Part shown: in pieces, positions 8,131 through 26,372 of the stretch | Position numbering within the stretch: position 1 is the first letter of the stretch | Layout: every line of letters begins with the position of its first letter | Assembly: GCA_001800315.1 (NCBI GenBank) | Contig: MGVE01000006.1 | Span: forward strand, 62,001-126,000 | DNA: 64,000 nucleotides | DNA from: Elusimicrobia bacterium RIFOXYA2_FULL_47_53 | Lineage (GTDB): Bacteria; Elusimicrobiota; Endomicrobiia; Endomicrobiales; XYA2-FULL-47-53 | Direction: 5' to 3' | The notes under the pieces: generated by a model | Databases searched by the model: none | The model's input: only the letters and a program-made list of their open reading frames with translations | What the model was told of the DNA's origin: nothing | Program-made: the position numbers and the translations under genes

Positions 8131-8151
8131 TTTAACCTCCGTTGCGAAAGC

Positions 8152-9612: not shown

Positions 9613-12600
9613 CTTGCCACCACTACGGTGCCGTTATAAATCCTGTCTCCGCATCTTACCTGATAAATATATATTCCGGGCACAACCCTGTTTCCGGAAT
9701 CGTCCGTCCCCGGCCAAATGAGCCAGTAATCGGTTTTCGCCGACATTCTCGCGGCCCGGCTGCCGGAAAGCTCGTAAATATAGCCTTCAACGGGGTCAAG
9801 GCCCGGATTTTCAAATGTGTAGTTTAGTTCGTCGTTGACGCCGTCGCTGTTAGGCGTTATTATTTTTGGCCATACGGAAAGCGTGTTAAACTCGGTTGAC
9901 CTGGATACCGTCCGGAGCTGATACAACCCCGTATGCACGGAATCCACCGTTACCGAGCCGTCCGCGCTCTCGCCTCCCAGGAAAACCCACTCCACCCCGT
10001 TAAACCAAAAAACTCCGGTCGTCAGTGTTTCCGAGCCGGGGGCGCGGCGCTGACGCGCCGCGGAGAGCGCGGAATATTTAAACGAAAATTTCACGGATTT
10101 TGAAAATTTATAGCCCGGCAGTTCCCCCGACGCGCCAACGGCTTTGACCGAATAGGCAGCCAGCACCGAGCCTGTTTCAAGGTCGTTGTGCCTTTCAATA
10201 TTTAACTGCACCTCGGGGGAAATAGACTCAACGGGTATTTCCACCGTAAGCGACTTGTCGGCGGGGTACAAAAGATAAGTATTTTCGGAACCGGCTTTGA
10301 ATATTTTTGAAGGCTGGCTCTCGGTGCCCCAGGCGTTAAACGCCTTTACCATGTAAAAAAAACTTCTGCCGTACACATCATCGTCGGACCAGGAGAGCGT
10401 TGCCGCGCCAAGCGTGGCTGCAGCCGTCGCGGTGAAAAGGCTGTCAAAATCGTAAGATCTGTAAACCCTGTAGCCGGAAAGATTGCCGAGCGCCGTTCCG
10501 TCCTCGTTTTTCGTCACGGCTTCCCAGGAGAGAACCGCTTTTTTCTTATCGGCGCTGACCGCAATGGCAAACCCCGAAGGGGCGAGCGGTTTCGCGAATT
10601 CAACGACAACAAAACTTCTGTCGGCGGACTGCGCGGTGAGACTGTCCGTTCCGGCCGCGTAAACTCTCCAATAGTAAGTCGCGCCGATGACAAGGTCTTC
10701 GGTGAAGGTGTAGGCCGCCGAGGTTAAGGAGTTTATTTCGGTTCTTGAGGTGAAGTCCGGGCTTCTTGAATACCACAGCGAATAGGTCACGCCTTCTCCG
10801 GGGTCGGGATCGCTTGTTTGATTCCACAAAAGCTGCGGTTTTGTTGTTCCCACGGCCGCTTTGTCGGCAGGAGAGTTTAAACTGAAAGCCGCCGGCGCCT
10901 CGGCCAAAGCGTTTATATAAAAACTGAATGTCTGAGAGGAATTCCTCTCGTTGTTCCAGCTGTCAACGGCCCTGGCGTACCAGAAGTACTGAGCGTTTTC
11001 CTCCAGAGAGGAAAGCGCGTAATTCGCGGCCGTCAGCCCGGCGGAAGATATGGCGGCGGAGAAATCGGAATTCCGCGAATATATGAAAGTGTAGGTAAAA
11101 TTATCCGATTCCGGGTCGGAGGCCGCCTGCCAGGAAAGCAGGGGCGAAGCGGTGCTGATTATTCCCGAAGAGGACAGCAGGCTGAAGCTTGAAGGCGGCT
11201 GGTTGGCCGCGGTAAAATACCATGTTGAATTTGAAAACCGCTGGCCGCTTATCTGCGAAGCAGCGAGAACCTTCCAGTAATAGGTGGCCCCGTTCTCAAG
11301 ATTGGAAGTAAGAGAATATGAAGATACGCTTATTCCGGCAACCTGGGACTGAACCGAAAAATCCTGATAGGTGGAATAAAACAAAGTATAGGATGCCACA
11401 TAGTCGCCGGGATCGGGATCGCTCGTATCACCCCAGTCAAAAATGGGGTTCAGATAAGCCGATGCTGAGCTGTTGGCGGGAGCAACCAGCTCAAAAGCCG
11501 CCGGCGGTTCGGCTATAGCGTTGATAAATATTTTAAACGACTGGTTTGAGGCTCTGGTATTTGAAAGGTAATCGTAGGCCTCAACTTTCCAGTAGTATGT
11601 CGCGTTCTCGTTTAAGGGAGAGGCTGTATAACCGGTGTTGAGAAGTCCCGCGGAAGACGAGTATACCGAGAAATCCTGGGCGGTGGAAACAAAGATATTA
11701 TAGCGAACCGTATCGCCGTCGGGATCCACGGCGGTTTCCCAGGTAAATACCGGGGACTGGGTGCTTACAATTCCAGAGGAACTAAGTAAATTGAATGCCG
11801 AGGGCGGCGCCTCAACGGCATTGACAAAAAATGACCTGATAGCCGTGAAAGTGTCAAGCGGCGTAAGGTCTATGGCATGGACCTGCCAGTAGTAGGAAAC
11901 GGCTTCGCTAAGCTCCGGAAGTTTGTAGTAAGTTGCCCCTATGCCGTCAATGCGGTGGTACTCCGCGGCGTCTAAGAGCGTCGGGTCGCTGGAAGAATAA
12001 ATAACGGTATAACTGAAGCTGTCGCCGGGATCCGGGTCGGAACTCGCCTGCCAGGCAAGCGTCGGAGTGGATATTAAGACCATCTCGCCGTTCGCCGGAG
12101 CGGTCTGCGCGAAAGCGGCCGGCGCTTCGGGAGAAGCGTTTATCTCAAAAACTCCCGTTGAAGCGCTCTGGGTCTGCATGGAAGTAAAGTCAACGGAAAA
12201 TACTTTCCAGTAATAGGTCGCGTTCTCTATAAGGTTAAAAGTAACCTGATACTGAATATCCGCGACCGAAGGCACCGTCGTGGTCGTCTCCAGGGAAAAA
12301 TTCGGGTTTGTGGAAAAGAATACCGTGTAGGTTATAAGTTCATTGGGGTCCGGGTCGGTCGCGGCGGCCCACTGAAGGTTTGGTTGAAGCCCGCCGAAAA
12401 TCTGATTGTTTATGGGAGAAGCCAGAGCGCAGCTGGACGGAGGCTCGCTGGAAGCGTTTACGATAAACCTTCTGTCGGCCTGCGTTGGATAACTTAAAGA
12501 GTAAAGCCCCTCCGAATCCATGGCTTTGACTCTCCAGTAATAGGTTGTATTTTCGGATAAGGGCGGCGTTACCCAGGAATCCGACGCATGGCTGTCTTTC

Positions 12601-13247
12601 GTGATCTTGTTGACGAACAAAATATCGGTTGAAACTTCAATAGTGTAAGATGATATAAAATCGCCGTAGTTTGCGTCGCTGCTTCCGCAGGACGGCGCGC
12701 CCCAGGTCAGCGTCGGGGTTGAGGTATAAACTATCTGGCCGTACATCAGGTTATTTACATTTACATTGCCGGGATTGGTGTTATAGGGGGACGAGAACGG
12801 CTCGGGAGAAGAGGTGTCAAGGCCCGACCAGTTTATTCCGTCCGTGGACGACTTTACGGCGAAAAAGTAATTTACTCCGTCTACAAGCCCGGTAACGGTA
12901 AAATTCACGGGCTCGCCGCCGCCAACTCCGGAGGTTGAAACGGAAATATTATATGGCGCCGAATTAATTGATGAGTTTGAGTTCCAGTCGCCTTCCGAAA
13001 TAATCGGGGTATAGGTTGACATCCGGATGTTGTAAAACGCCGCGGCGGTGCTTGAGGCGGTATCATAGGGCGCGGTCCAGGAAAGAACCAGGTGCCTGAA
13101 ACCTCCGGACGCGATTTTCAGGTTTGTGACGGCATCAGGCGCGCCGTAGGACCGTGAAGCGGCAAAAATGGCGGCCAGCAGGAAAAGCCCGGCTCCCCTG
13201 GCGATTTCGCGCAATAATCCTGAGTGTTTTGCCTTATTTATGCCCAT
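9609..13247 (-). CDS. Secreted FN3-type repeat protein with C-terminal gliding/FlgD-type domain
   Basis: Signal-peptide-like N-terminus; ~100-aa repeats PxFxWxxASDPDPGDxxxYTxxYSxxxDFS...YYWxVxAxD; C-terminal NTLSVWPKIITPNSDGVNDELNYTFENPG...WPGTDDSGNRVVPGIYIYQVRCGDRIYNGTVVVAR. The stop of this ORF overlaps the start of the downstream ORF by 4 nt. Confidence 0.85.
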   Translation of the reverse strand: MGINKAKHSGLLREIARGAGLFLLAAIFAASRSYGAPDAVTNLKIASGGFRHLVLSWTAPYDTASSTAAAFYNIRMSTYTPIISEGDWNSNSSINSAPYNISVSTSGVGGGEPVNFTVTGLVDGVNYFFAVKSSTDGINWSGLDTSSPEPFSSPYNTNPGNVNVNNLMYGQIVYTSTPTLTWGAPSCGSSDANYGDFISSYTIEVSTDILFVNKITKDSHASDSWVTPPLSENTTYYWRVKAMDSEGLYSLSYPTQADRRFIVNASSEPPSSCALASPINNQIFGGLQPNLQWAAATDPDPNELITYTVFFSTNPNFSLETTTTVPSVADIQYQVTFNLIENATYYWKVFSVDFTSMQTQSASTGVFEINASPEAPAAFAQTAPANGEMVLISTPTLAWQASSDPDPGDSFSYTVIYSSSDPTLLDAAEYHRIDGIGATYYKLPELSEAVSYYWQVHAIDLTPLDTFTAIRSFFVNAVEAPPSAFNLLSSSGIVSTQSPVFTWETAVDPDGDTVRYNIFVSTAQDFSVYSSSAGLLNTGYTASPLNENATYYWKVEAYDYLSNTRASNQSFKIFINAIAEPPAAFELVAPANSSASAYLNPIFDWGDTSDPDPGDYVASYTLFYSTYQDFSVQSQVAGISVSSYSLTSNLENGATYYWKVLAASQISGQRFSNSTWYFTAANQPPSSFSLLSSSGIISTASPLLSWQAASDPESDNFTYTFIYSRNSDFSAAISSAGLTAANYALSSLEENAQYFWYARAVDSWNNERNSSQTFSFYINALAEAPAAFSLNSPADKAAVGTTKPQLLWNQTSDPDPGEGVTYSLWYSRSPDFTSRTEINSLTSAAYTFTEDLVIGATYYWRVYAAGTDSLTAQSADRSFVVVEFAKPLAPSGFAIAVSADKKKAVLSWEAVTKNEDGTALGNLSGYRVYRSYDFDSLFTATAAATLGAATLSWSDDDVYGRSFFYMVKAFNAWGTESQPSKIFKAGSENTYLLYPADKSLTVEIPVESISPEVQLNIERHNDLETGSVLAAYSVKAVGASGELPGYKFSKSVKFSFKYSALSAARQRRAPGSETLTTGVFWFNGVEWVFLGGESADGSVTVDSVHTGLYQLRTVSRSTEFNTLSVWPKIITPNSDGVNDELNYTFENPGLDPVEGYIYELSGSRAARMSAKTDYWLIWPGTDDSGNRVVPGIYIYQVRCGDRIYNGTVVVAR

Positions 13248-13267
13248 TTTTGGCGTTGCCGCCCCTT

Positions 13268-16200
13268 TTATTTCGTTTCGTTTTTATTTTTATCTCCGGT
13301 ATTTATTTCTATCACCGGCTGGTGCAGATTTCTCCAGAATTTAGACATAACCCGCGACAAGGCTATTTTGTCGGACTCCGAATCGCTTCTAAAGGCGTGG
13401 GCCGCGTCTGTAATTTCAGGAGGCAGAATGACCGTGTCGGAGGCCTCCATATTGACTGCCGACGGAACCGTTTCCGTTCTTCCGGATTTATCCAGCTCTT
13501 CTCTGAGCGATATGCTTTCGTCCACTTTTTTAAGAAACTCGCTCTGCAGCTCCTCATATTTTGTTCTTAATTTGGCAAGATCTTCCCTTCTGGCCTTAGC
13601 GTCGTTCTCTGTGTCTCTTATTCTGGCAAGCAGATCATTCTTCTCGGTATCCGTTAAGCCGTGCGTCGCGAGCCTTTTCTCAAGCTCTTCTCTTAAGGCC
13701 TTCTCGCGCGTCGCGGCGTCGTGCGTCTCGGCAAGCTGCCTGGCAAGCTCGCTGGCGGCTTTCTCTTTTTCCAAAAGGGACTTATTCCACTCCGAACGCT
13801 CCAGATTAAGCTGCTGTTCCAGAGCCGCGAGTTCATCCTGCATGCTCCTGCGAACCGCGGAAACCTCGTCTTTAAGAACTTTCGTAAGCTGCCATTTATC
13901 GTCTTCCAGCTTTGACAAATCCTGCCTGTATTTAGTCTCAAGCTCCTGCCTGAGCTGGCTTTCAAAAGTCGCGCGCGCGGCCCTTATCTGGGAAAGCTCC
14001 TCTTCCCTCTGGCTGATAATTTCCTTGAGCTCCTCTCTTTCCTCGCGGGCTCTCTGGTCTAAATTGAGAAAATCCTCGCGCGCCTTGTTCTCCGAATTGA
14101 GTTTCTCTATTTTCATTCTCTCTATCTCCCGGGCTCCGGAGGCTATTTCAGCTTTCATGCCCGCTATGCTTTCCTTGAGCTGCGCGGCGGACGAGGCAAA
14201 GGCTTTTTCCTTCTCGGCCAGAAGAGCGTCTTTCCTGAGGATTTCGTTTTTGCCGTTTTCGGCGGCTTCCCTGGCGCTTCTTTCGGCGGTTTCCAGTTTC
14301 TGCTGAATTCTTGAAATCTCTTCTTTGTGAAGCGATTCTCTGCGTTCTATTTCCAGCGCGTTGTCCTTGAGTTTGAACGCGAGCTCGTTTCTTGACTTCT
14401 CCATTTCCTGTCTGTGAGCTGCCGCGTCGGCGGAATGTTTTTTTACTTCGTTTTCAAGGTTCTGCCTGATAAATTCCGCCGCCCTCTTTTCATCCGCAAG
14501 TTTTTCCTGGGCCGCCTTCAGAGCCTTATCGGACTCGGAAACCGCAAGGAGTTTTTCTTCCCTGAGAGCCGCTATCTGGGCGTCTTTCTCGCGCAGAAGC
14601 CTTTCTCTTTCTTCTTTAAGGTTTAATATCTGCCCTTTTATGGATTCAATTTCTTTTGAGTGCGCCGCGCCCAACAGGGCCTTTTCCTGCTCGGCGGCGG
14701 ACTTTACTGAAGCTAATTCCTTTAAGGCCTCTTCCAGCCTGCGGCCGTTACTGAGAATGGCTGCGGCCTGCTCGCTGTTTTTGTTTTTTAATTCAGCAAG
14801 CGAGTTTTCGTACTGGCCGAGCGCCAGCTTTAAGCCCCGTTCCTTTTCAACAAGCTGAGAAACGGCTTCTTCCTTTTCGGCCAATTTTGCCTTAAAAGCG
14901 TTGAGCGAGGCCAGGTGCTCATTTTCTTTCTGAGCCAGGCGGGCGGCCGCTGATTTTTCATTTTCAGCCGAGCGCTCGCGTTCTTTTACAAGCTCCTGGT
15001 TTTTGGCGTCAAGCAGAACCTGAGCCTGAGCGGCTTTGCCCTCAAGGGCATTCTCTTTAACCTTAAATTCCATTTCCTTTTCCCTGAAACTCTTTATGTC
15101 TCTGTCCCTGGATTCAATCTGCGAGGACAGCCAGGCGATTTTTGACTCTTTCTCAAGCAGCGCCTCTTTGGCCGCGTCAAGCCTGGCGACCAGCTCGCTT
15201 TCCCTGTTTTTTAACGCTCTTTCCTTCTCGTGCCACGCTCTTATTTCGTTGTCGCGCGCTCCTATCTGAGCATTAAGATTTTTGATCTCGCCCTCTTTCT
15301 GGGCTATCACCTGGGCAAGCGCCCTTTCTTTTTCCGCGTACATGTCTTTCTCGCGGGCGAGCTCTCCGTTTTTAACCTCAATTCTGGAATTCATTTCGGA
15401 AAGTTTTTGCTCGTACCTGCCAGCCTCAAGCTTAAATTCTCTTTCCTTCTCGCGCCATGAAGAAATTTCCGACTCCTTCGCTTTTATGGCGTCAGCAAGC
15501 TGCGCGCGTTCCAGCTCAAACTGTTTCTGCGCGTGGGCCGAGGCCGCGCGGCCGGATTCCAGAGCCGCCGCGGAGGCGCTGATTTTTTCCTCAAGGTCGC
15601 GCAGTTTATGCTCGTACCTGAAAATGGTTGTCTTGTACTCGCGCTCCTTTTCCAGAAGCCCCTTTATCTCGCCGTCTTTCTCCTGCAGTTTGGAATTAAC
15701 CGCGGCGATCCCGGAGTTGAACTCGGTTTCCTTCTGCGATATCTCGCGCAGGGTTTCCTGTTCCTTGGCTTTAAGCCTCTCCTCGTGCATCCTTGCCAGC
15801 GACGACAACTCCATATCCTTTTTGTCTATCGCCTGCTTTAATTCTGTTTCTTTTTCCCTGGCGGCATTTTTAACAAGGTTAAGCTCTTCTTCTCTGGACC
15901 TGGTTGTGACTTCCCACTGCTGCCTTTCCCTCTGGGCCTGCTCTTTGACAAGGAGCATTTCCTTGAGCGTTTTTTCCTGCTCGGCCTTGGCTCTCGCCTG
16001 ATAAAGGGCGAACTGTGTTTTTAAAAGGAAGAACTCCTTTTCTTTGTTTTCAAACTGCGCCCCGATGCCTGATTTTTCCGCTCTCATTTTTTCCAGCAGC
16101 TGGCGCATCTGGTCAATTTTTTCTTTTTCCTGGCGGTTCTGCGTGACGATCATGGCCTGCTGGGCCTTGATGCCAAGGTACTCTTTGTCCCTGGCTTCCA

Positions 16201-17002
16201 GTTTGGCAAGAAGATTTTCTTTCTCCTGCTCTCTGACGGCGTTCATGTCCTTGAGCTCTCTTTTAAATGATTCTCTTTCGCTCTCGGCGTGAAGGATCCT
16301 TTTTTCAAGAGCATCGCGCTCCGAAGACAGAGCTTTTTCAAATTCTTTGTTGAGCTTACCTATCTCTTCATCTTTATTTTTCAGCGCCTGCGCCCAGCCG
16401 AGTTTCTCCTCATGCCAGCGCCTTTCCAGCTCTTTAAGACGCAGTTCAAAGTGGGTTTCAAGCTCTTTTTCCTGACCTTCCCGCTGGCTGAGCTGGGTGC
16501 GCAGCGTTTCAACCCAGGTCTGCCTCTCGGAGGCAAGCCTCTGCTCCATGTCCTTTATCTGCGATTCGTATTTTGTAATGGAATCCTGGAGTTCCTGTTC
16601 CCTTTTTTCGCGGCGCAGGCGATCCTGAATATCCTTTAGCGATTCTTCAACTTTTGAGGCCAGCGCTTCTTCTTCCTTGGCCCTGACTGTCTGGAGCAAA
16701 AGCTTCTCGCGCTCTTCCTGGAGCTGGCGCTGAAGCCCGGATATCTGAGCGTCCATCTGTTTGCGCATCTCTTCAAGTTCCGAAGAGCTGGCTCCGTGAG
16801 CCTCAACCTGAAGCTCGGACTGCGCGGCCTGTCTTTCCGGTGTTCTGACGGGAGGCATCATTGGAGCGGCCGTCGGAAATTTAGGCGCGGCCTTGGGCCC
16901 CGCCAGAGGGGGCAGGGGAAGTTTAGCGCCCTGATTTGGTTTCGGCGGAAATTTGCCCTGGGGGAGCGGCGGCGGCAGCTTCGGTTTCTTTTCGTCAGTC
17001 AT
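13268..17002 (-). CDS. Very long coiled-coil protein with Pro-rich N-terminus
   Basis: 1244 aa; N-terminus MTDEKKPKLPPPLPQGKFPPKPNQGAKLPLPPLAGPK; the rest is nearly continuous heptad sequence rich in K/E/L/A/Q; no signal peptide seen. Confidence 0.85.
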   Translation of the reverse strand: MTDEKKPKLPPPLPQGKFPPKPNQGAKLPLPPLAGPKAAPKFPTAAPMMPPVRTPERQAAQSELQVEAHGASSSELEEMRKQMDAQISGLQRQLQEEREKLLLQTVRAKEEEALASKVEESLKDIQDRLRREKREQELQDSITKYESQIKDMEQRLASERQTWVETLRTQLSQREGQEKELETHFELRLKELERRWHEEKLGWAQALKNKDEEIGKLNKEFEKALSSERDALEKRILHAESERESFKRELKDMNAVREQEKENLLAKLEARDKEYLGIKAQQAMIVTQNRQEKEKIDQMRQLLEKMRAEKSGIGAQFENKEKEFFLLKTQFALYQARAKAEQEKTLKEMLLVKEQAQRERQQWEVTTRSREEELNLVKNAAREKETELKQAIDKKDMELSSLARMHEERLKAKEQETLREISQKETEFNSGIAAVNSKLQEKDGEIKGLLEKEREYKTTIFRYEHKLRDLEEKISASAAALESGRAASAHAQKQFELERAQLADAIKAKESEISSWREKEREFKLEAGRYEQKLSEMNSRIEVKNGELAREKDMYAEKERALAQVIAQKEGEIKNLNAQIGARDNEIRAWHEKERALKNRESELVARLDAAKEALLEKESKIAWLSSQIESRDRDIKSFREKEMEFKVKENALEGKAAQAQVLLDAKNQELVKERERSAENEKSAAARLAQKENEHLASLNAFKAKLAEKEEAVSQLVEKERGLKLALGQYENSLAELKNKNSEQAAAILSNGRRLEEALKELASVKSAAEQEKALLGAAHSKEIESIKGQILNLKEERERLLREKDAQIAALREEKLLAVSESDKALKAAQEKLADEKRAAEFIRQNLENEVKKHSADAAAHRQEMEKSRNELAFKLKDNALEIERRESLHKEEISRIQQKLETAERSAREAAENGKNEILRKDALLAEKEKAFASSAAQLKESIAGMKAEIASGAREIERMKIEKLNSENKAREDFLNLDQRAREEREELKEIISQREEELSQIRAARATFESQLRQELETKYRQDLSKLEDDKWQLTKVLKDEVSAVRRSMQDELAALEQQLNLERSEWNKSLLEKEKAASELARQLAETHDAATREKALREELEKRLATHGLTDTEKNDLLARIRDTENDAKARREDLAKLRTKYEELQSEFLKKVDESISLREELDKSGRTETVPSAVNMEASDTVILPPEITDAAHAFRSDSESDKIALSRVMSKFWRNLHQPVIEINTGDKNKNETK

Positions 17003-17045
17003 TTTCTTTTCCTCCTGTAGTTTTATATATTTTTATTACCTTTAC

Positions 17046-20000
17046 TTAAATTAATGACTCAAGCCATTCCTTTAGCTGTTCATTTTGCGGTTCCAGCTCA
17101 TAGGCTCTCTGCGCCATCTTTCTGGCTCCCGCTTTGTCTCCCGTGTTCCAGCAGCACAAAGACAGATACTGGTAGGCTCCGGCGAAATTCGGCCTGAACT
17201 TAACTATTTTATTGAGTTCTCTCGTCGCGGCCTCATACTCCCCTTTGTTGAACAGCTCAAGGGCAGACTCAAACAGCACGGAGAGCTTATCGGAGCTTTT
17301 TATCTCAAGAGAAATATTCTTTGAGGAGATGCGCCGCCTTAAAGCCTCGGCTTTTTCCTTAAGGCCGGAAACCAATTCCTGTGTTTTGTCGCGCTCCAGG
17401 GTAAGCGCTCCTTCTTTATAATTCATAAGCCTTGAGAGATTTTCCACCTGGCTCTGTTTGGCTTTTAAAACCTTTTCAAAAGTTTCGTTAACGGCCCTGA
17501 GTTCAATTTCAAGTTTCTCCACGCCGGCTTCCACCGACCCGGCGGCCTCAACGAGAGCGGTCTGCCTGCCGTTTTGCTCTTCCTTCCATTCTTTTTCTTT
17601 TTTCTCAAGTTCGGACCTTATGCCGGCGAGTTCCGAGCGAAGCTTTTCAACTTCTTCGTTCCTGGCCGGGACTTCTTTTCCGTACTGCTGTTCCAGCAGC
17701 TCTATTTCACCGGAAAGCACAGCGATTATCTTGTCGGTTTCTTCCTTGCGGCGTTTGGTCTCCGAGGCCAGCCTGTCTTCTCTCATCGCGAGCCTGATTT
17801 TAAGCGTATTAATCTCTTCTTCCCTGGAACTCAGCTTTATCGCCCAGGTCTCCCTGGTTTCGGAAAGGTTTCTCTGCAAAGCCGCAAGCTGGTCCGAGAG
17901 CTTTCTGTGAAGCTTGCGGGACTCGCGTTCAGCCCTGTTTTTCTCGGACTGAACCGCGGTGTCTTTAAGGGCAGCGTCCAGCTTAACGCGCTCAATTTCT
18001 CTTTCTATATCTTTTCTGTCTTTTTCTATTCTCAGTATTTCATCTTTAATTTTCTTTTCCAGGAAAGCTCTCTCGGAAGACAGCTTTTCTCTGGCTTCAG
18101 TAAAATCGCGCTCATAGCGTTTTAATATCTCCTGTTTTTCCTCTTCGGTTTTTACGGCCTCGGCGCGCAGAGCGGAAAGCATTTTATCCTTTTCATCAGC
18201 CTGTGCTTTCAGCCTTGACTCGGCTTTGGCTATGTCCTGCTCGGTATCCGCGATCTTTGCCTCAAGCGCCATTTTTTCTTCTTCCCATTCCGAGAGGCGT
18301 TTTTCCTCTTCAGTTCTGGCTCTTAACTCCCAAAATTCAAGGTTTGATTTGAGCATTGAAAGCTCTTTCTCTTTCGCTTCCCTGGCCTCAAACCATGTTT
18401 TCTGCATATTCTCAAGATTGTTCTTTAATTCGTTAATCTGCGCGCTCATGCTCTTAACAGATTCTTCCCACTCGCGCTTTTTTTCGGCGGCCTCGGCCGA
18501 CATTAGGCCGACCCTGGATTTGTGCTGCTCCTGGAAACGGGCTAACTCGCTTTCCTTCTCCGCGATAACCCGCCTGGCATTCTCTTCTTCCTCGCGGAGC
18601 ATCTGGCTTATGTTTTCCAGCTCTTTTATCAATATGGCTTTCTCCGCGGCCAGCTCCGCCTCCCTTTGTTTCCAGGACGCCTCAAGGGATTTTTCCTTTT
18701 CCGCCAGCTCGGCCTGCAGGGAGATCAGCTCTTTTTCCTTTGCGCGCAGCTGTTCATGGGACTCAACCTGCAGATCTCTGAGTTTTTCGTCCAGCTCCGC
18801 CTTCTGCTTCTCAAGTTTGAATTTCTCTTCGGTAAACAGTCTGCTTCCTCTTGCCAGCTCGTCCTCAAGGCTTTTTTCTTTCGCCGCGAACTCACTCTGG
18901 GCCGTGGCAAGCTTTTCGCCCAGGGCCTGCAGTTCAGAATTTCTTTTAGACTTTATTTCTTCTATGGCTTTCGCGGACTGCGAGAGCCTTCTTTCGGCTC
19001 TGTGCTGAAAATTCTCAAGGCTTTTTTCCGCCAGCCCGCGCTGCTCGGAGTAATATTCTTCTCTTTCCTTTATATGTTTTTCAAGCGCTTCTATCTCAAC
19101 GCGCCGCGCGTTTACAAGAACCGGGTATTCACTCTCAATTTTTTCGGTTTTAGCCTGAATTTCCTCTATTTCCCGGTTTATCTGCCTGACGCTTTCCGCC
19201 GCGGCGGCTTTAGCCTCTGACAGTTTTATTTTAATGGCCTCTAAACGGGCCGAGGCCTCATTTTCAAGCTTCCCAAGCTCCTCTTCTTTTTCCAGCTTTG
19301 AAGCGTTGAACTCTGAAATCAGCTTTTGTTTCTCTTCTTCCATGGAATCCGAAGCGGCCTTAAGTTCCGCTCTTGAACGGGACAGTTCCTCCCGGAGCTG
19401 CCTGAGCTGATTCTCGTATTGTTCCTCTTTGGCTGACTGCTCGGAACGCAAAACCTCCAGTTGCTTCGTTTCGGCGAAGAGCTTCTCCTCATAGCCGGTT
19501 TTTACTTTTTGCGAAATCGCCTCAAGCTCGGCGCGTCTGCCGGCGAGCGGCTCAAGGCGCTGCTTAAGTTCCGTTTCTATGGCGGCGAGTTCCGCGGCCA
19601 TTTTATTTTCATTAAGGCTCAGCTTTTCCTTAAGTTCCGAGATCTCCCGGGTTTTTGACTTTGTTTTTCCGTCTATTTCCGATTTTACGGTTTCAAGTTC
19701 TGCCGCAAGAGCCGCAAGCTGTTTTTCGCTTTGAGCCTTTGCCGCGGACAGCTCCTGTTCCTTTATTCCAAGCTCCCTGGCTCCGCCAAGCTCCAAAGCT
19801 TTAAGCTTATTCTCTTCTTCCAGGAGTTCTTTTTCTTTCGCGGCTATTTCTATGCCGAATTTTTCCTGCTGGCGTATATATTCTTTTTCCAGAGACCGTA
19901 TTTCCGAATTTATGGCTTCGGTTCTCAGTGAGAATTCATTTTCAAGTTTTGACTTTTGAGCTTCAAAACCCTCTCTTTCCTTTGATAGCGCGGCCTGGAG

Positions 20001-21851
20001 GCTGTCCTCTTCGGCTTTGAGCCTGTTGTATGTTTCCGCCGACTGCACAGACTGCCTTTCAATCTGAGAGCGTATTTCCGAGAGCTTTTCCGCGGCTATT
20101 TTTTCACTCTGGGCAATCCTTTCGGCCTGCGCGGCGATTCTGGCGCGAATCGCATCCTCCTGCCTCTTGTGCTGTTCCGCCAGGGTATTTTTCTGCGTTT
20201 CCCTTCTGAGCATTTCTTCCTGCGAGGAACGGGAGAACTCCTTTAGCTTTTGCTTTATTTCGTCCAGCTGCCTTAAGACAGGCTGCTGCTGCTCCTTTAG
20301 CTCCGCGTCCAGAGCCGCCAGATCCCTTCTTACCAGCGCTTCTCTGGCGGATATTTCGCCTTTGCAGACGCTGACTTCTTTTTCCTTCTGGCTGATGACT
20401 CCGCTCCAGTGCGCCTTTTCCTGCTCCAGCGCCGCCTGCGTGTCGGCGAGTTCCTTATCAAGGGATTCCTTGCGTTTTTTGCAGTCGGCGATCGCCTGCT
20501 CCTCGGCTTTCAGCAGGCCGCTTTGTTTTGCCTGCCATTCTTTCTGGTAGTCCGCGAACTCCGCGGTTTTAATTTCCATCTGCTTCTGCATGGAGAGCTT
20601 TTCTTCCCTGAGCTTGCTTTCAAGGCTTGAGAGTTCGGCGACAAGGCCGGCTTTCTCCTGTTCGGAGCCGGCTTTTCTTTTTTCAAGCGTTTCCCTCATC
20701 TCCCTGAGCTTTATCTCCGATTGAATCTTTATGAGCTTGAGCTCTTCGTCTTTGGACGCTATCTCCCTTGACCAGTTTTCTTTTTCCTGGGAAATTTTCT
20801 GCCTGATATCTTTTAATCTTCTATTGGCGGCGTTTTCCGCTTCCCTGAACTCCTGTATCTTTTTCTCGCCCTCGGCTTTCTCCTGGCTTTCGCGCAGCAT
20901 CAGCTCGGCCTTAAGCGCTCTAAGCTGTTCATCCTTTTCGGATATTACCAGCTGCCAGCGCGACTGTTCTTCGGCTATGCCTTTTTCCAGGGTTTTTATG
21001 CGGTTCTGCGCGCTCAGGCGCAAGGACTCTATTTCCTTTTCCTTTTTCTCCGATTCAATTTTAAACCGCGAGATTTTCTGTTCCAGGGCGCTTTTGAAGG
21101 CTATTAGTTCGGCTTCCTTCTCGGAATAGGCCCCGGCCAATTCGCGGTGCTGGCCTTCCAGCCTGTTTTTGAGCTCATCCTGCTGTTCCTGCCAGGCCGC
21201 CTCAAGATCGCCTTTCACTTTTCTTGACTGCTCTTCCTCCAGGCGCGACTGCGCGTCTTTAAGCGAAATCTGGGTTTTAATGCCCAATATATCGCCCTCC
21301 TTCGCCTTGAGCCTCGCGACCCACTGGTTCTGCTCTTCAAGCAGCTGTCTTTCCATGCTCTTTAATTTATTTTCGGCCTGGGCCAGATCGGCCTGCAGTT
21401 TGCGCAGGGCCTGCTCGCTTTCAAGTTTTTTCTGGGTCTCGGCGAAAACGGCACGGTGTTTAGCCTCGTCAAGTTCCTTGTCTTTGGCGGATATCATTTC
21501 GTTCCATTCGGCGGCCCCGCTCTGAAGTTCGCTGTTTAACTGGGCGAGGCTGTCTTGTATATTTTCCTGCATTATTTTAAGCTCTGACTCTCTTTTTAAC
21601 TTTTCCTGCTCCGCGGAACTGATAAGCGAGTCTAAGCGCGCTTTAAGAGTAATGCCTTCCTCTTCCTTATCTTTTATTTTTTTAAGAAACAGCTCGCGCT
21701 CCGAAGCTATCCTTTTCTCTATAGCTTTCAGCTGTTCTTCGGCGCGGCCGCGCGCTTCCGCGAGCTGGCCGCTTTCGGGAACCGCCGCTTTCGGGGCCTC
21801 AATAATTTCTTCTTTTTGTTCCTGAGTGTTTCTTTTTTTGAAAAATTCCAT
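17046..21851 (-). CDS. Very long coiled-coil protein with C-terminal TPR
   Basis: 1601 aa coiled coil; C-terminal LFESALELFNKGEYEAATRELNKIVKFRPNFAGAYQYLSLCCWNTGDKAGARKMAQRAYELEPQNEQLKEWLESLI is a TPR pair. Confidence 0.87.
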   Translation of the reverse strand: MEFFKKRNTQEQKEEIIEAPKAAVPESGQLAEARGRAEEQLKAIEKRIASERELFLKKIKDKEEEGITLKARLDSLISSAEQEKLKRESELKIMQENIQDSLAQLNSELQSGAAEWNEMISAKDKELDEAKHRAVFAETQKKLESEQALRKLQADLAQAENKLKSMERQLLEEQNQWVARLKAKEGDILGIKTQISLKDAQSRLEEEQSRKVKGDLEAAWQEQQDELKNRLEGQHRELAGAYSEKEAELIAFKSALEQKISRFKIESEKKEKEIESLRLSAQNRIKTLEKGIAEEQSRWQLVISEKDEQLRALKAELMLRESQEKAEGEKKIQEFREAENAANRRLKDIRQKISQEKENWSREIASKDEELKLIKIQSEIKLREMRETLEKRKAGSEQEKAGLVAELSSLESKLREEKLSMQKQMEIKTAEFADYQKEWQAKQSGLLKAEEQAIADCKKRKESLDKELADTQAALEQEKAHWSGVISQKEKEVSVCKGEISAREALVRRDLAALDAELKEQQQPVLRQLDEIKQKLKEFSRSSQEEMLRRETQKNTLAEQHKRQEDAIRARIAAQAERIAQSEKIAAEKLSEIRSQIERQSVQSAETYNRLKAEEDSLQAALSKEREGFEAQKSKLENEFSLRTEAINSEIRSLEKEYIRQQEKFGIEIAAKEKELLEEENKLKALELGGARELGIKEQELSAAKAQSEKQLAALAAELETVKSEIDGKTKSKTREISELKEKLSLNENKMAAELAAIETELKQRLEPLAGRRAELEAISQKVKTGYEEKLFAETKQLEVLRSEQSAKEEQYENQLRQLREELSRSRAELKAASDSMEEEKQKLISEFNASKLEKEEELGKLENEASARLEAIKIKLSEAKAAAAESVRQINREIEEIQAKTEKIESEYPVLVNARRVEIEALEKHIKEREEYYSEQRGLAEKSLENFQHRAERRLSQSAKAIEEIKSKRNSELQALGEKLATAQSEFAAKEKSLEDELARGSRLFTEEKFKLEKQKAELDEKLRDLQVESHEQLRAKEKELISLQAELAEKEKSLEASWKQREAELAAEKAILIKELENISQMLREEEENARRVIAEKESELARFQEQHKSRVGLMSAEAAEKKREWEESVKSMSAQINELKNNLENMQKTWFEAREAKEKELSMLKSNLEFWELRARTEEEKRLSEWEEEKMALEAKIADTEQDIAKAESRLKAQADEKDKMLSALRAEAVKTEEEKQEILKRYERDFTEAREKLSSERAFLEKKIKDEILRIEKDRKDIEREIERVKLDAALKDTAVQSEKNRAERESRKLHRKLSDQLAALQRNLSETRETWAIKLSSREEEINTLKIRLAMREDRLASETKRRKEETDKIIAVLSGEIELLEQQYGKEVPARNEEVEKLRSELAGIRSELEKKEKEWKEEQNGRQTALVEAAGSVEAGVEKLEIELRAVNETFEKVLKAKQSQVENLSRLMNYKEGALTLERDKTQELVSGLKEKAEALRRRISSKNISLEIKSSDKLSVLFESALELFNKGEYEAATRELNKIVKFRPNFAGAYQYLSLCCWNTGDKAGARKMAQRAYELEPQNEQLKEWLESLI

Positions 21852-21865
21852 CTATCCCTCCGCTG

Positions 21866-23701
21866 TTACACTGTTCTTTTCTGGGATGAAAGCCAGTTTC
21901 TGAGTTCCTGGTTTGAAGGGTCAAACTCAAGGGCTTTTTCATAGGCGTTTACGGCTTCATTGGCGCGGCCAAGCGCGTAGTAGGCGCCGCCAAGGTACTG
22001 GTAAACCGCGGCATTGCCCGGATCCATCTGCTGACAGTATTCAAAATATGTTATCGCGTCCTCATACTGGCCCGACTCGTAGTACTGCACGCCCGCGTTG
22101 AAATAATCGTTTATGGAAGAGGTTTCCGAAGCCTGTTTCTGCTCCTGCTCAGCCTCTATGTCCGAGGAACCTTCAAGTATGGCGCTTTTCGGTTTCTCTC
22201 GTATGAATATCTTGCCGTCTTTTTCAAGCTGCTTGATAAGGTCCACTATTTTCTTTCTTTCTTCTTCAATTTCTTCGTTTGTGGCCGGCCTGCCGTACTC
22301 CATCTCTTCCTTAAGCATTGCGGCCGCGCTCGTGGACATATTCGTAAAGAACTTATTTAATATTTCGGGAGCAGCGTTGCGAAGGCCGCGGGCCAGGTTG
22401 TCGGACTTAAGCTCCCTTATGATTGTCTGCATGGCCTGGTCCGGAAATGAGGGAATATCCTCAAAAGTGATTATGAATTTTCTGACTTTGTCATACAGGT
22501 CCGGCTTCTCATTTTTTAAATAATCCAGTATGTTGTCAAGCGTGATCCTGTCAACTTTCTCCAGCACATTGAGCAGGTGGTCAAGCCCTCCGATGACAAA
22601 ATCTATCTTTTCTTTGAGCTCGTTATCATAGGACATCAGCTCTTCCTGGGTCATCAGCCTTACTTTGGCCATCTCAACGGCCACCTGGGCCTGCAGCTCC
22701 GGAGGGAAGGAACCGAGTATTTCCTTAACATATTCCGGCTTCAAGTAGCTCACGACAAGCGCTATTTCCTGAGGCTCCTCTCTTCTTATAAGATATATCA
22801 GCTGCCTTAAATTCTCGTCGTTTACATAGCTGAACGGTATATATTTTTCTTTTTCAAGCTCTTCAATCTCTTCCTGGGTCATACCCTCGCCGACCCCGCC
22901 GACTCCGCCGCCGGCCCCGTCTTTGCCGGCTTCATCCTCGGGCCCGCCCTCAAACTTTGAATCCACGGTAACCTCGGTGCCGCCTTTCTCTTTGAGCGTC
23001 TGCACATAATGACGAAAGAAGCTCGCGAGCGGCCCGAACAAAAACATAAGGAGCAGAAGGGCCAGAATAGCCGGTATCAGCACCTTGGGTTTAAAAAGCT
23101 CTTCGCTGAAGCCGGGCGTGAACTTGGTTTTCTTGAAATCTATCTTGTCGCCTCTTTTAGGGTCAATCTTGAGCGAAGTGGTTATGGCGTCTTTGACCAT
23201 ATCAAGGCCTTCCTGCGAGACTTTTTCGTCATAAAGAACCGTGACCAGCTGCTTTTTGATGACTGTTTTTGTTTCCACTTTAACTTCTTCGGCGGTGCCG
23301 GACTCTTCCTTTGATTCTCCCGGCGCCGATTCCTGAGATACGGATTTGGGGTTGGGTATGCCGGGCAGGAGATATTCCACCTCTCCGAGCCTTTTCTTTT
23401 TCTCTGTCTTTTTTTCTTTCGCGGCCTGATTGGAGGTCTTTGTTTCCATGCCCAGCTCCACATCCACTATGACGATGGCTTTGCCGGGGCCGAGTATCTT
23501 GTCAAGTATGAAGGTCTGAATGTATTCAGCCTTGTCTTTCTCGTACCTTACTTCCTGGTCCATAAGGGAAAAGGGAGAGTTGTCGTTGGCCGCGAACAGC
23601 GGAAAAATAAAAAAACAAACCAAAACGGCAGCCAGGCCTGATGTTTTTTTCTTTTTCATTGAGTTTGTCCTTTTGTGAAAATAATTAATATTAAGGTTCA
23701 T
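21866..23701 (-). CDS. FliF-like periplasmic segment + TM + FliG middle/C-terminal domains + TPR fusion protein
   Basis: FliG_M-like YVNDENLRQLIYLIRREEPQEIALVVSYLKPEYVKEILGSFPPELQAQVAVEMAK; FliG_C-like VRKFIITFEDIPSFPDQAMQTIIRELKSDNLARGLRNAAPEILNKFFTNMSTSAAAMLKEEMEYGRPATNEEIEEERKKIVDLIKQLEKDGKIFI; N-terminal signal peptide, FliF-like ring-building segment YEKDKAEYIQTFILDKILGPGKAIVIVDVELGMETKT...VLYDEKVSQEGLDMVKDAITTSLKIDPKRGD; TM KVLIPAILALLLLMFLFGPLASFF; C-terminal TPR. Likely start is the internal ATG at 23659 (MKKKKTSG). Confidence 0.88.
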   Translation of the reverse strand: MNLNINYFHKRTNSMKKKKTSGLAAVLVCFFIFPLFAANDNSPFSLMDQEVRYEKDKAEYIQTFILDKILGPGKAIVIVDVELGMETKTSNQAAKEKKTEKKKRLGEVEYLLPGIPNPKSVSQESAPGESKEESGTAEEVKVETKTVIKKQLVTVLYDEKVSQEGLDMVKDAITTSLKIDPKRGDKIDFKKTKFTPGFSEELFKPKVLIPAILALLLLMFLFGPLASFFRHYVQTLKEKGGTEVTVDSKFEGGPEDEAGKDGAGGGVGGVGEGMTQEEIEELEKEKYIPFSYVNDENLRQLIYLIRREEPQEIALVVSYLKPEYVKEILGSFPPELQAQVAVEMAKVRLMTQEELMSYDNELKEKIDFVIGGLDHLLNVLEKVDRITLDNILDYLKNEKPDLYDKVRKFIITFEDIPSFPDQAMQTIIRELKSDNLARGLRNAAPEILNKFFTNMSTSAAAMLKEEMEYGRPATNEEIEEERKKIVDLIKQLEKDGKIFIREKPKSAILEGSSDIEAEQEQKQASETSSINDYFNAGVQYYESGQYEDAITYFEYCQQMDPGNAAVYQYLGGAYYALGRANEAVNAYEKALEFDPSNQELRNWLSSQKRTV

Positions 23702-23703
23702 AG

Positions 23704-25320
23704 TTATTTAAGTTGATTTAAGAACTCGGCTACGACCTTGTTGGTCGGGTCAAGCTCCATAACCTTCATCCAGACCGCTCTGGCTTTGTCAGTCTGATCC
23801 ATCATGAAGAAGGCCGAACCCATTATTTCAAGCGCCGTAATGTTGGCCGGCTCAAGGTTGAGTATTTCCTGAGCCTTAATCAGCGCCTGGTCATACTTGC
23901 CTTCAATAATGGACTGTCTGGCGTCATAGATCTTCTGGTCTATGATGGTAAATCCGACGACATCCTCTTTCTGGGCGTCGGTAACCGTGATGCCGAGGTC
24001 TTTCTCTATCTTGTTAAGCAGAGCCAGCAGTTTCATGTTGCCGGGATTCTTGTAATAAGCATACCTGAAGGCATTAATAGCGGCTTTGTCGTCGCCTTCA
24101 ACAAAACCGGCCACGCCTTTGCGTATGGATACAGCTTCTTCGCTTTCTCCCGGAGCCGCCGGCAGGTAGCCGGTAACAATCTGTATCTTGCCGAACATTC
24201 TCTTGACATCCTGGCTGCCCGGATCAATATCAAGCGCGGCTTCCAGGCGGCTGAAGGCCAGCAGGAAATTGCCTTTGTTGTAAGCTTCCATGCCTTCCTG
24301 AATATAGCGGCGCACAAGGGTTTCTCTGTCCTGGCTGACCGATGGTCCGAAGCGCCAGGAACCTGAAATTCTGTGGGAGAGCCCGAGGTCGTGCAGGGCA
24401 AAAGCGTAGTCCAGGCCGTAATCTTTATATTTGACTCCGAAACCGGCCGAGGTCTCGCGGATACCCTGTTCGCCCTCAAAGCCAAGCCTTAAACAGGCGA
24501 AATTTACAACCCAGTATTCCGCGCCGATGTGCCAGCCCATATTTGCTTTTAAATTCTTGTCTATATCAAAAGCTACGAGAAGTTTTTTTCTAAGGAAGGT
24601 GTGGCTGGCTCCGAACCTGAAAATAAGCGGGAGTTTGTCGTCCGTGTCTCCGAATTTCGCGCTTAAAAGGTTCTGTATGCCGAAACCGAGGTTAAGCTCC
24701 TGGAACCTGTGGTTAAATCCCTGTATGAGAATGTCGGTATCAAATGTGACAAAACCGTTGGTTGAATAATCCAGGGTATGAGTTATGTATTTGCCGGAAA
24801 CACCGACAGAAACGTTTTCTTTGATTTTCTTTCCGTACGCGCCGGTAAGGGCCATCTGCACATCGTCAAAATACCCGAGAGTCTGTATATCTATGATATC
24901 TTCTTTATTTTGGTCAAAGGTAATTGCTATTTTTTCAAATCCGCCCGAATAAAGCCGTGTGAGGTTAACGCCGAAAACGCCGAGTTTGGGGGTGGGGTGA
25001 ACATATGAAAGGAAATCGTAGCTTGTGTCCGCGAAAAGGTTAACATGAAGCGCCATAACCTCTTTTCTGTCCAGCTGTGTCAGGCCCGCGGGGTTCCAAT
25101 AGGTGGCTGAAGCGTCATCCGATACGGCGAAGAAGGCTTTGCCCATGCCCAGAGAACGCGCGCCTGCTCCCCATGAAAGGAACTGGCCCGGCTGGCCTCC
25201 GGTACCCGCGCCAAATACCAAAGCAAGAGGGCACGCGGTAATAAGTATCGCGCAAGCCAATACTTTTGCCGCCCTCTTAAGCCCTGCTATTTGATTGATC
25301 AGGCCCGTTATTTTATTCAT
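23704..25320 (-). CDS. PorV/PorQ-family outer-membrane protein with C-terminal TPR region
   Basis: Signal peptide, then GQFLSWGAGARSLGMGKAFFAVSDDASATYWNPAGLTQLDRKEVMALHVNLFADTSYDFLSYVHPTPKLGVFGVNLTRLYSGGFE (PorV/UPF0164 signature); C-terminal TPRs ending ARAVWMKVMELDPTNKVVAEFLNQLK. Confidence 0.88.
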   Translation of the reverse strand: MNKITGLINQIAGLKRAAKVLACAILITACPLALVFGAGTGGQPGQFLSWGAGARSLGMGKAFFAVSDDASATYWNPAGLTQLDRKEVMALHVNLFADTSYDFLSYVHPTPKLGVFGVNLTRLYSGGFEKIAITFDQNKEDIIDIQTLGYFDDVQMALTGAYGKKIKENVSVGVSGKYITHTLDYSTNGFVTFDTDILIQGFNHRFQELNLGFGIQNLLSAKFGDTDDKLPLIFRFGASHTFLRKKLLVAFDIDKNLKANMGWHIGAEYWVVNFACLRLGFEGEQGIRETSAGFGVKYKDYGLDYAFALHDLGLSHRISGSWRFGPSVSQDRETLVRRYIQEGMEAYNKGNFLLAFSRLEAALDIDPGSQDVKRMFGKIQIVTGYLPAAPGESEEAVSIRKGVAGFVEGDDKAAINAFRYAYYKNPGNMKLLALLNKIEKDLGITVTDAQKEDVVGFTIIDQKIYDARQSIIEGKYDQALIKAQEILNLEPANITALEIMGSAFFMMDQTDKARAVWMKVMELDPTNKVVAEFLNQLK

Positions 25321-25338: not shown

Positions 25339-25728
25339 TTAATGCACTACGCCTATTTTTCTGACCGATGAAAGCCTGGCATTTGAGTTCTCTATTTCCA
25401 CCACAGCCAGGTAACCGCCCATTGATACTTTCTGTCCCGATTCGTCGGTTCCGTCCCAGACTATTTTGCTTGTTCCGGGATTTACGATGTTCTGCGGGTA
25501 ATCCCTCACGACATTGCCGAAAAGGTCAAATATCCTGACCCTGACTTCCGAGTGGCCGGAAAGACGGTAAATTATCGTGGTTGATTCCCTGCGGGAGTCA
25601 AAAGGGTTCGGATAATTACTGACCTGTCCGTCCTGCCAGAGATTCAGGCCGGCGGTGGAAACTTTACCGGTCCCGATCAGGGCTGTCAGCAGAAGCAGCG
25701 TGATAATCATCCTTATCGACCTTTTCAT
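25339..25728 (-). CDS. Small secreted protein made almost entirely of a FlgD-type C-terminal domain
   Basis: Signal peptide, then VSNYPNPFDSRRESTTIIYRLSGHSEVRVRIFDLFGNVVRDY...KIVWDGTDESGQKVSMGGYLAVVEIENSNARLSSVRKIGVVH. Same fold signature as the C-terminus of the giant protein (…IRKVGIIH). RBS-like GGGAG upstream. Confidence 0.85.
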   Translation of the reverse strand: MKRSIRMIITLLLLTALIGTGKVSTAGLNLWQDGQVSNYPNPFDSRRESTTIIYRLSGHSEVRVRIFDLFGNVVRDYPQNIVNPGTSKIVWDGTDESGQKVSMGGYLAVVEIENSNARLSSVRKIGVVH

Positions 25729-25759: not shown

Positions 25760-25799
25760 AAAAAATAAAAGCCGAATCGCCTTACCACGGGCAATCCGG
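25760..25799 (-). terminator. Intrinsic terminator in leader, downstream of the proximal GEMM aptamer
   Basis: Minus-strand RNA CCGGAUUGCC-CGUGGUAA-GGCGAUUCGG forms a 10-bp stem (two G-U pairs), followed by CUUUUAUUUUUU, ~30 nt before the start codon at 25728. Confidence 0.75.
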
Positions 25800-25910
25800 T
25801 TACCTTTGTGCAGTTATGCCCAGAAACTCCTGGGATACTGCTGTGATCGCGGCCTTCGGGGGCTTGAAAACACCGGGCTTGCTGCCGCCTTCGGTGTACG
25901 ATGGCCTAAT

Positions 25911-26005
25911 CTTCGGTAACCCGGCTACCCTCTCTCTTAATTGTACAACTTTGAGTAGGGCCCGTGGCTTTGCGTCCTCCGATTTCTCGGAGTTTGCCTT
26001 TATCG
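25911..26005 (-). promoter_or_regulatory. GEMM-I cyclic-dinucleotide riboswitch aptamer (proximal)
   Basis: Minus-strand RNA AUAAAGGCAAACUCCGAGAAAUCGGAGGACGCAAAGCCACGGGCC...GGGUAGCCGGGUUACCGAAG. Matches the GEMM-I consensus: GGCAAAC, 6-bp P2 with GAAA tetraloop, GACGCAAAGCC, GGUAGCCGGGUUACCG. Confidence 0.93.
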
Positions 26006-26061
26006 GAAACTGCTTTTTAAAGAACGGTGGCGCCTTTTTCGGCTGCGGTAGGGGGCTTTTT

Positions 26062-26106
26062 AAAAAACTAAAACTACCGCGGCTTTTTTGTGGCAAGCTC
26101 GGTAGT
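26062..26106 (-). terminator. Intrinsic terminator between the two aptamers
   Basis: Minus-strand RNA ACUACCG-A-GCUU...AAGC-CG-CGGUAGU followed by UUUUAGUUUUUU. Confidence 0.65.
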
Positions 26107-26198
26107 CTAAAGATAGGGGACTTTTTATAGAGGTTCCGGAAACAATAACCGCAGTTACGGTTCTGTCTCCGCGTTGTTAACTGTCTTTTTGAATGTCG

Positions 26199-26285
26199 TT
26201 TTCGGCGGCCCGGCTAGCGTAGATAGCCCCTATCTTTAGCTCCGTGGCTTTGCGTCCCCGGGTTTCCCCGGGTTTGCCAGTTACA
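26199..26285 (-). promoter_or_regulatory. GEMM-I cyclic-dinucleotide riboswitch aptamer (distal)
   Basis: Minus-strand RNA GUAACUGGCAAACCCGGGGAAACCCGGGGACGCAAAGCCACGGAGCUAAAGAUAGGGGCUAUCUACGCUAGCCGGGCCGCC. Same conserved blocks; P2 CCCGGG-GAAA-CCCGGG. Confidence 0.88.
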
Positions 26286-26343
26286 TAATTTATCGACGAC
26301 ATTTCAAATGTTAAAATCAGACAGTTTCTTTCTTTCCACTATA

Positions 26344-26372
26344 TAAATAGCAGAGATGCCATAATATGTCAA
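26344..26372 (-). promoter_or_regulatory. Sigma70-type promoter for the riboswitch-led operon
   Basis: Minus strand TTGACA (26372-26367), 17-nt spacer, TATTTA (26349-26344, followed by TATAG). Perfect -35, imperfect -10, ~50 nt upstream of the distal aptamer. Confidence 0.6.

Follow-up and report, generated by a model that had tools for sequence, protein, structure and literature searches.

Two c-di-GMP-I riboswitches in series upstream of a FliF/FliG-like operon in Elusimicrobiota

The window analysed here is a stretch of 64,000 nucleotides corresponding to positions 62001-126000 of contig C6 in an Elusimicrobia genome of 2.41 Mb from the order Endomicrobiales (G000; other G numbers denote other genomes, and C numbers denote contigs). 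On its minus strand, an NtrC-like gene is followed by a hairpin, a promoter, a first aptamer (A1) with its terminator (T1), a second aptamer (A2) with its terminator (T2), and the ATG at 25728 that opens a run of eight genes, about 20 kb long, with gaps of at most 43 bases. The features are the following:

28096-26705, minus strand: NtrC-like gene, upstream of the leader
26515-26482, minus strand: terminator-like hairpin, from a terminator scan
26372-26344, minus strand: predicted promoter, with TTGACA (26372-26367), a 17-nt spacer and TATTTA (26349-26344), 9 of 12 consensus matches
26179-26326, minus strand: two outer helices around A1 (26326-26319/26186-26179 and 26303-26296/26199-26192), 8 bp each, perfectly complementary
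26288-26201, minus strand: aptamer A1, c-di-GMP-I (RF01051, full length, 83.9 bits, E 4.5e-15)
26227-26239, minus strand: P3 5' strand and GGGG loop of A1, CUAAAGAUAGGGG, putative antiterminator partner, a 13-bp perfect complement to 26119-26107
26107-26119, minus strand: putative antiterminator element CCCCUAUCUUUAG, kept beside T1 in each of the six tandem leaders and at two single riboswitches
26062-26107, minus strand: terminator T1, stem 26107-26100/26079-26072, then UUUUAGUUUUUU (hairpin of -13.6 kcal/mol and U-tract)
26007-25911, minus strand: aptamer A2, c-di-GMP-I (RF03167 72.9 bits, RF01051 73.9 bits; E 2.4e-15)
25784-25804, minus strand: putative A2 antiterminator strand, GGUAACC (25804-25798) and GCCCGUGGU (25792-25784), from complementarity and the free fold
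25760-25799, minus strand: terminator T2, stem 25799-25790/25781-25772, then UUUUAUUUUUU, from the terminator scan
25339-25728, minus strand: first gene, 129 aa, FlgD_ig domain (Pfam PF13860, 1.3e-9)
23704-25320, minus strand: PorV-like outer-membrane protein (UPF0164) with TPR (Pfam PF03687, 8e-9)
21866-23701, minus strand: FliF/FliG-like rotor protein with TPR (FliG_C 4.7e-29, FliG_M 7.2e-14, YscJ_FliF_C 9.6e-6; structure 1lkv, 5.8e-40)
6046-21851, minus strand: two coiled-coil-like proteins (1601 and 1244 aa), an FN3 protein (1212 aa), a LysM-like protein (486 aa) and a 694-aa protein, tightly spaced and in an order kept in relatives

A preliminary description of this DNA had proposed that the minus strand carries two independent GEMM-I aptamers, one after the other, and had suggested a covariance-model search with RF01051 as a check. 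Scanning the whole window with cmscan at gathering thresholds (35 bits for RF01051, 59 bits for RF03167) returned two Rfam matches, both GEMM-I, both on the minus strand and both where that description had placed them. A1 and A2 each exceed the RF01051 cut-off and span model positions 1-87. Both contain GGCAAAC, GACGCAAAGCC and a 3' ...CCGAA, and with them G20, A47 and C92 (Vc2 numbering), which we take to be the c-di-GMP pocket residues of the c-di-GMP-I aptamer. Judged by their sequences, these are two real c-di-GMP-I aptamers, and the original observation is confirmed. The genome as a whole has five GEMM-I aptamers; in 14 well-known control genomes none scored above the cut-off.

The two aptamers share a GAAA loop in P2 and part company in P3. 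In A1, P3 contains CUAAA but its loop is GGGG, and it carries AGCUAAAGRUAGGGG(G) in all six tandem leaders we found; this motif is absent from A2, whose P3 is without receptor sequence and has insertions that vary among the six. By these features A1 and A2 are distinct subtypes and not copies. A recent duplication was considered and rejected, since the two differ from each other, A1 matching the A1 of relatives and A2 their A2.

The arrangement around the aptamers is also as first described. The predicted promoter lies upstream of both, the ATG downstream of both, and each has its own hairpin and U-tract, so that two aptamers of the same class, each with a terminator, stand between a promoter and a first gene. 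A stricter promoter scan did not list the TTGACA-17-TATTTA pair because its second hexamer ends in A. CCCTTGAC and a -10-like hexamer occur upstream of A1 in 6/6 tandem leaders, and the -10 reads TATACT in two orthologous ones.

The same ordered pair, A1 then A2, also stands in front of this operon in five relatives belonging to other families (G003, G005, G007, G087 and G090), which makes the order constant in 6/6 tandem leaders; G007 belongs to the same order as the window's genome. Homologous operons were examined in 13 other genomes: besides these five, there is a single aptamer in G085, G089, G092, G095 and G099, and no leader aptamer was found in G094, G096 and G100. Single GEMM-I aptamers precede the operon in at least 53 further genomes, and GEMM-I scores above the cut-off in 140 of 342 genomes, phylum-wide. 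For at least 59 of 115 FliG-like genes, the aptamers listed include a GEMM-I aptamer on the gene's own strand, 1.7-3.1 kb upstream; this count took in only aptamers seeming to belong and comes without a fair negative control.

Aptamers, terminators, antiterminator elements and their conservation, the promoter and the gene order can all be read from the sequence; the sign and tightness of control are what we infer from them. We consider it likely that this c-di-GMP-I tandem acts as two transcriptional OFF switches on one long transcript, A2 being strong and A1 maybe weak. Two complete riboswitches in series would control the transcript that starts from the promoter at 26372. During transcription, each aptamer could fold with c-di-GMP. 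In the unbound state, a downstream strand would pair with aptamer strands and form an antiterminator; in the bound state, this strand would be left free and the intrinsic terminator would form. c-di-GMP would thereby switch the operon off, and RNA polymerase would have to pass two checkpoints, an arrangement of the same-ligand tandem type for which a sharper response is expected. Where the preliminary description had anticipated ligand-dependent read-through, folding and the conserved antiterminators point to termination in the presence of ligand; the prediction is clear for A2 and for the A1 of relatives, and weak for the A1 of the window.

In the window, A2-T2 would be the strong switch. GGUAACC (25804-25798) pairs with GGUUACC (25921-25915) of the aptamer, and GCCCGUGGU (25792-25784) with the P3 strand GCCACGGGC (25968-25960); both segments lie in or against the 5' arm and loop of T2. 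This antiterminator forms in the free fold and is gone when the aptamer is held, and the pairing of T2 rises from 0.00-0.01 to 0.93-1.00 in the same comparison. In folding, A2 thus behaves as a transcriptional OFF switch of the Cd1 type. The longest perfect complement here is 8 bases, which is not unusual against shuffles, so the case for A2 rests on position, double changes and fold. The A2 pairs show two double changes in G001 (A-U to G-C and C-G to G-C) and a G-C/G-U/A-U series, with no excess of double changes over shuffled controls among the five sequences. Under our crude 'aptamer held' model, the A2 of G005 and G007 switches little. Covariation as a proof of the antiterminators was discarded, the changes being few and in no excess over shuffles.

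For A1, the candidate antiterminator is a strand that adjoins or overlaps the terminator stem and is complementary to the P3 strand; the complementarity spans 13 bases in the window, 16 bases in relatives. None of 500 shuffles gave a complement longer than 11 bases, against the window's 13. Pairing would most naturally begin at the GGGG loop of P3. T1 is present in 6/6 tandem leaders; the terminator scan missed it, its loop exceeding the length that the scan allows. The 19-mer CCCCTATCTTTAGCTACCG, which combines the element and the start of the terminator, has five exact matches in 342 genomes, and a GEMM-I aptamer lies beside every one of them (G000:C6:182 kb, G003, G005, G087 and G090); G007 has it with one mismatch. 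No aptamer was seen alongside near-matches of the 19-mer in G003:C3, G003:C1, G005:C22, G092:C70 and G099:C16. The single riboswitch G005:C17 has one A-U to G-C double change in the A1 helix, but also two broken pairs. The outer helices around A1 have versions of other sequence in G005 and at G000:C6:182 kb and are absent in other relatives; present in only 3/8, they were not retained as a conserved part of A1.

Does A1 switch in the window as it seems to in its relatives? In the five relatives the element ends in AGCU and takes the terminator base, and the basal pairs of the terminator fold at 0.00-0.32 free versus 0.88-1.00 with the aptamer held. In the window the element ends in AGAC, a two-base change that brings the overlap with the terminator down to one outer pair, and the basal pairs of T1 fold at 0.64 without and 0.90 with the 5' leader when free, and at 0.96-0.97 when held. 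As T1 already pairs at 0.64-0.90 in the free state, switching by the window's A1 is doubtful. A1-T1 may switch weakly according to these folds, because its element misses the terminator base and the aptamer gains stability from two outer helices. The AGAC ending, the small difference between free and held folds and the outer helices that hold the A1 aptamer would suit a reading in which only A2 switches here, with A1-T1 acting as an attenuator, either decayed or hardly dependent on ligand, that keeps the maximum output low. We regard this as a real possibility, although not the favoured one: A1 is near consensus and has kept its 13-bp element, neither of which decay would predict, and co-transcriptional folding may be misjudged by equilibrium folding. 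We keep to two OFF switches, the first perhaps weak. Separately, within 26050-26079 (minus strand), GCGGUAG in the 3' arm of T1 can also pair with a downstream CUACCGC, which hides T1 in the fold of the full-length leader.

ON switching, in which c-di-GMP would allow read-through as in Geobacter pilM or in the AND reading of tandem c-di-GMP riboswitches, appears unlikely. ON GEMM-I switches do exist (PMC9262584), and one GEMM-I aptamer of the same phylum has the ON layout, its 3' strand being the 5' arm of the terminator (L193, G275:C43). In the window, however, no aptamer strand forms a terminator arm, and terminator pairing rises when either aptamer is held.

The OFF reading also supposes that c-di-GMP is the ligand, and we infer that it is for both aptamers. 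GGDEF enzymes that make cGAMP alter the GD motif; the window's genome has nine GGDEF matches, 9/9 of them with the ND..G...GD motif, and nine HD_5 (HD-GYP-type) matches. In the aptamer itself, G at the specificity position goes with c-di-GMP and A with c-AMP-GMP (PMC9481103). GEMM-Ib riboswitches for 3',3'-cGAMP, of the Geobacter pilM type, have the same fold as A1 and A2 but carry A at the G20 position, where both of ours read GGC; 3',3'-cGAMP, put forward earlier for probing, is accordingly an unlikely ligand. Another indication of a different specificity might be sought in RF03167 (c-di-GMP-I-GGC), which cmscan ranks above RF01051 as the top Rfam model for A2, and with which A2 shares a P3 without canonical tetraloop receptor. 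Yet the consensus of that model is CGCGAA (GACGCGAAgCc), whereas A2 has CGCAAA, with A, not G, at the variant-defining position, and its best match to RF03167 was rejected on this ground as the mark of a new ligand. Since both aptamers carry the c-di-GMP pocket residues, they would belong neither to the cGAMP type nor to the GGC variant, and it is very improbable that one or both bind another cyclic dinucleotide or a variant ligand. c-di-GMP is expected for both because of the G at the specificity position and the CGCAAA of A2. The affinity of A2 may differ from that of A1, as A2 is without the usual tetraloop receptor. As to A1 and A2 being chance or vestigial matches with no regulatory role, this is scarcely credible given their E-values, their conservation across families and the terminators placed between aptamer and gene.

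What would the two OFF switches control? The name 'FliG-like' given to the operon is borne out by the FliG_M, FliG_C and FliF C-terminal matches within one of its genes, and the aptamers do stand upstream of the whole eight-gene run. A surface or motility function, also proposed at first, still goes beyond the gene content, but gains weight from the MotA/MotB-like genes that lie next to FliG-like genes and from the absence of FlhA. The flhA gene (PF00771) was found in 0/101 genomes, the window's own included, by a search that recovered it in E. coli, B. subtilis, C. vibrioides and T. maritima. MotA/ExbB-family genes occur in 20/20 genomes searched; the window's operon itself has no MotA gene. 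In G099, a GEMM-led operon continues with MotA and two OmpA/MotB-like genes. On contig C8 of the window's genome (L094, 7182-12828), a giant protein is followed by a second cluster of FlgD_ig, PorV-like, FliG-like, MotA and two OmpA/MotB-like genes; no GEMM-I match was found at this C8 cluster. Contig C15 (L092, 10336-11376, minus strand) encodes a 346-aa FliG M/C paralogue, which lacks the FliF part and shares 62% identity with the FliG-like protein of the window. A flagellum-independent motor is plausible, and the target operon is probably such a surface motor, used at low c-di-GMP.

The RNA device is of a known kind. The preliminary description held tandem GEMM aptamers to be uncommon; tandem c-di-GMP-I is instead the most frequent tandem riboswitch class, with 347 doublets and 12 triplets (PMC9481103). 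As in the Bc3-5 tandem of Bacillus thuringiensis, a complete aptamer and expression platform are repeated for the same ligand, with a sharper response expected (PMC4759541, PMC9481103). Unlike other tandems of this class, the present one has distinct conserved subtypes, different antiterminator wiring, an Elusimicrobiota host and a FliF/FliG-like operon. In Clostridioides difficile, class I riboswitches act as OFF switches, one of which represses the flagellar flgB operon (PMC6200980), and Cd1 uses an aptamer/antiterminator/terminator logic (PMC9262584). Cd1 (Cdi-1-3) resembles our case as a GEMM-I switch with an antiterminator that takes aptamer strands, an intrinsic terminator and a repressed motor-type operon (PMC9262584, PMC6200980). 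It is, however, a single switch on a true flagellar operon, whereas the present operon has two switches, and FlhA was absent from the 101 genomes searched; moreover, in A1 the P3 5' strand and GGGG loop would carry the switching contact.

The conserved link with a FliF/FliG-like operon is notable and deserves follow-up. The literature search found no paper joining Elusimicrobiota with c-di-GMP riboswitches. The new part would be the predicted phylum-wide c-di-GMP control of this operon, with no FlhA in the genomes searched. A FliG-type rotor operon outside the flagellum would thus come under the direct control of c-di-GMP in a phylum that is mostly uncultured, and the predicted sign can be tested: like motility genes elsewhere, the operon would be on when c-di-GMP is low. 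More tentatively, Elusimicrobiota might possess a flagellum-independent FliF/FliG-like rotor with MotA/MotB-like stators, coupled to PorV-like proteins of the outer membrane and to surface proteins of very large size, and serving surface movement or adhesion, with c-di-GMP riboswitches repressing it across the phylum and the two-subtype tandem in Endomicrobiia. In the A1 element, a conserved strand further downstream captures the loop and one strand of P3; this offers a clean model in which working and weakened versions of a switch can be compared across species.

Other GEMM-I aptamers of the phylum deserve mention. Seven (L165, L183, L189, L190, L191, L176 and L197) are candidates for the 3',3'-cGAMP type, with UAGCA for GGCA and A at the specificity position. 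At four single aptamers (L197, L176, L163 and L160), a terminator-like hairpin with U-tract seems, by eye, to lie inside the signal-peptide coding part of the next gene. Finally, positions 28170-63827 of the window (minus strand) belong to a single open reading frame that is 17,343 codons long and runs on to C6:142201 (C6 142201-90170). The encoded giant protein looks secreted and has a C-terminal end resembling FlgD_ig; 1.65 kb upstream of the frame, beyond two small genes, is a GEMM-I aptamer (C6:143855-143987).
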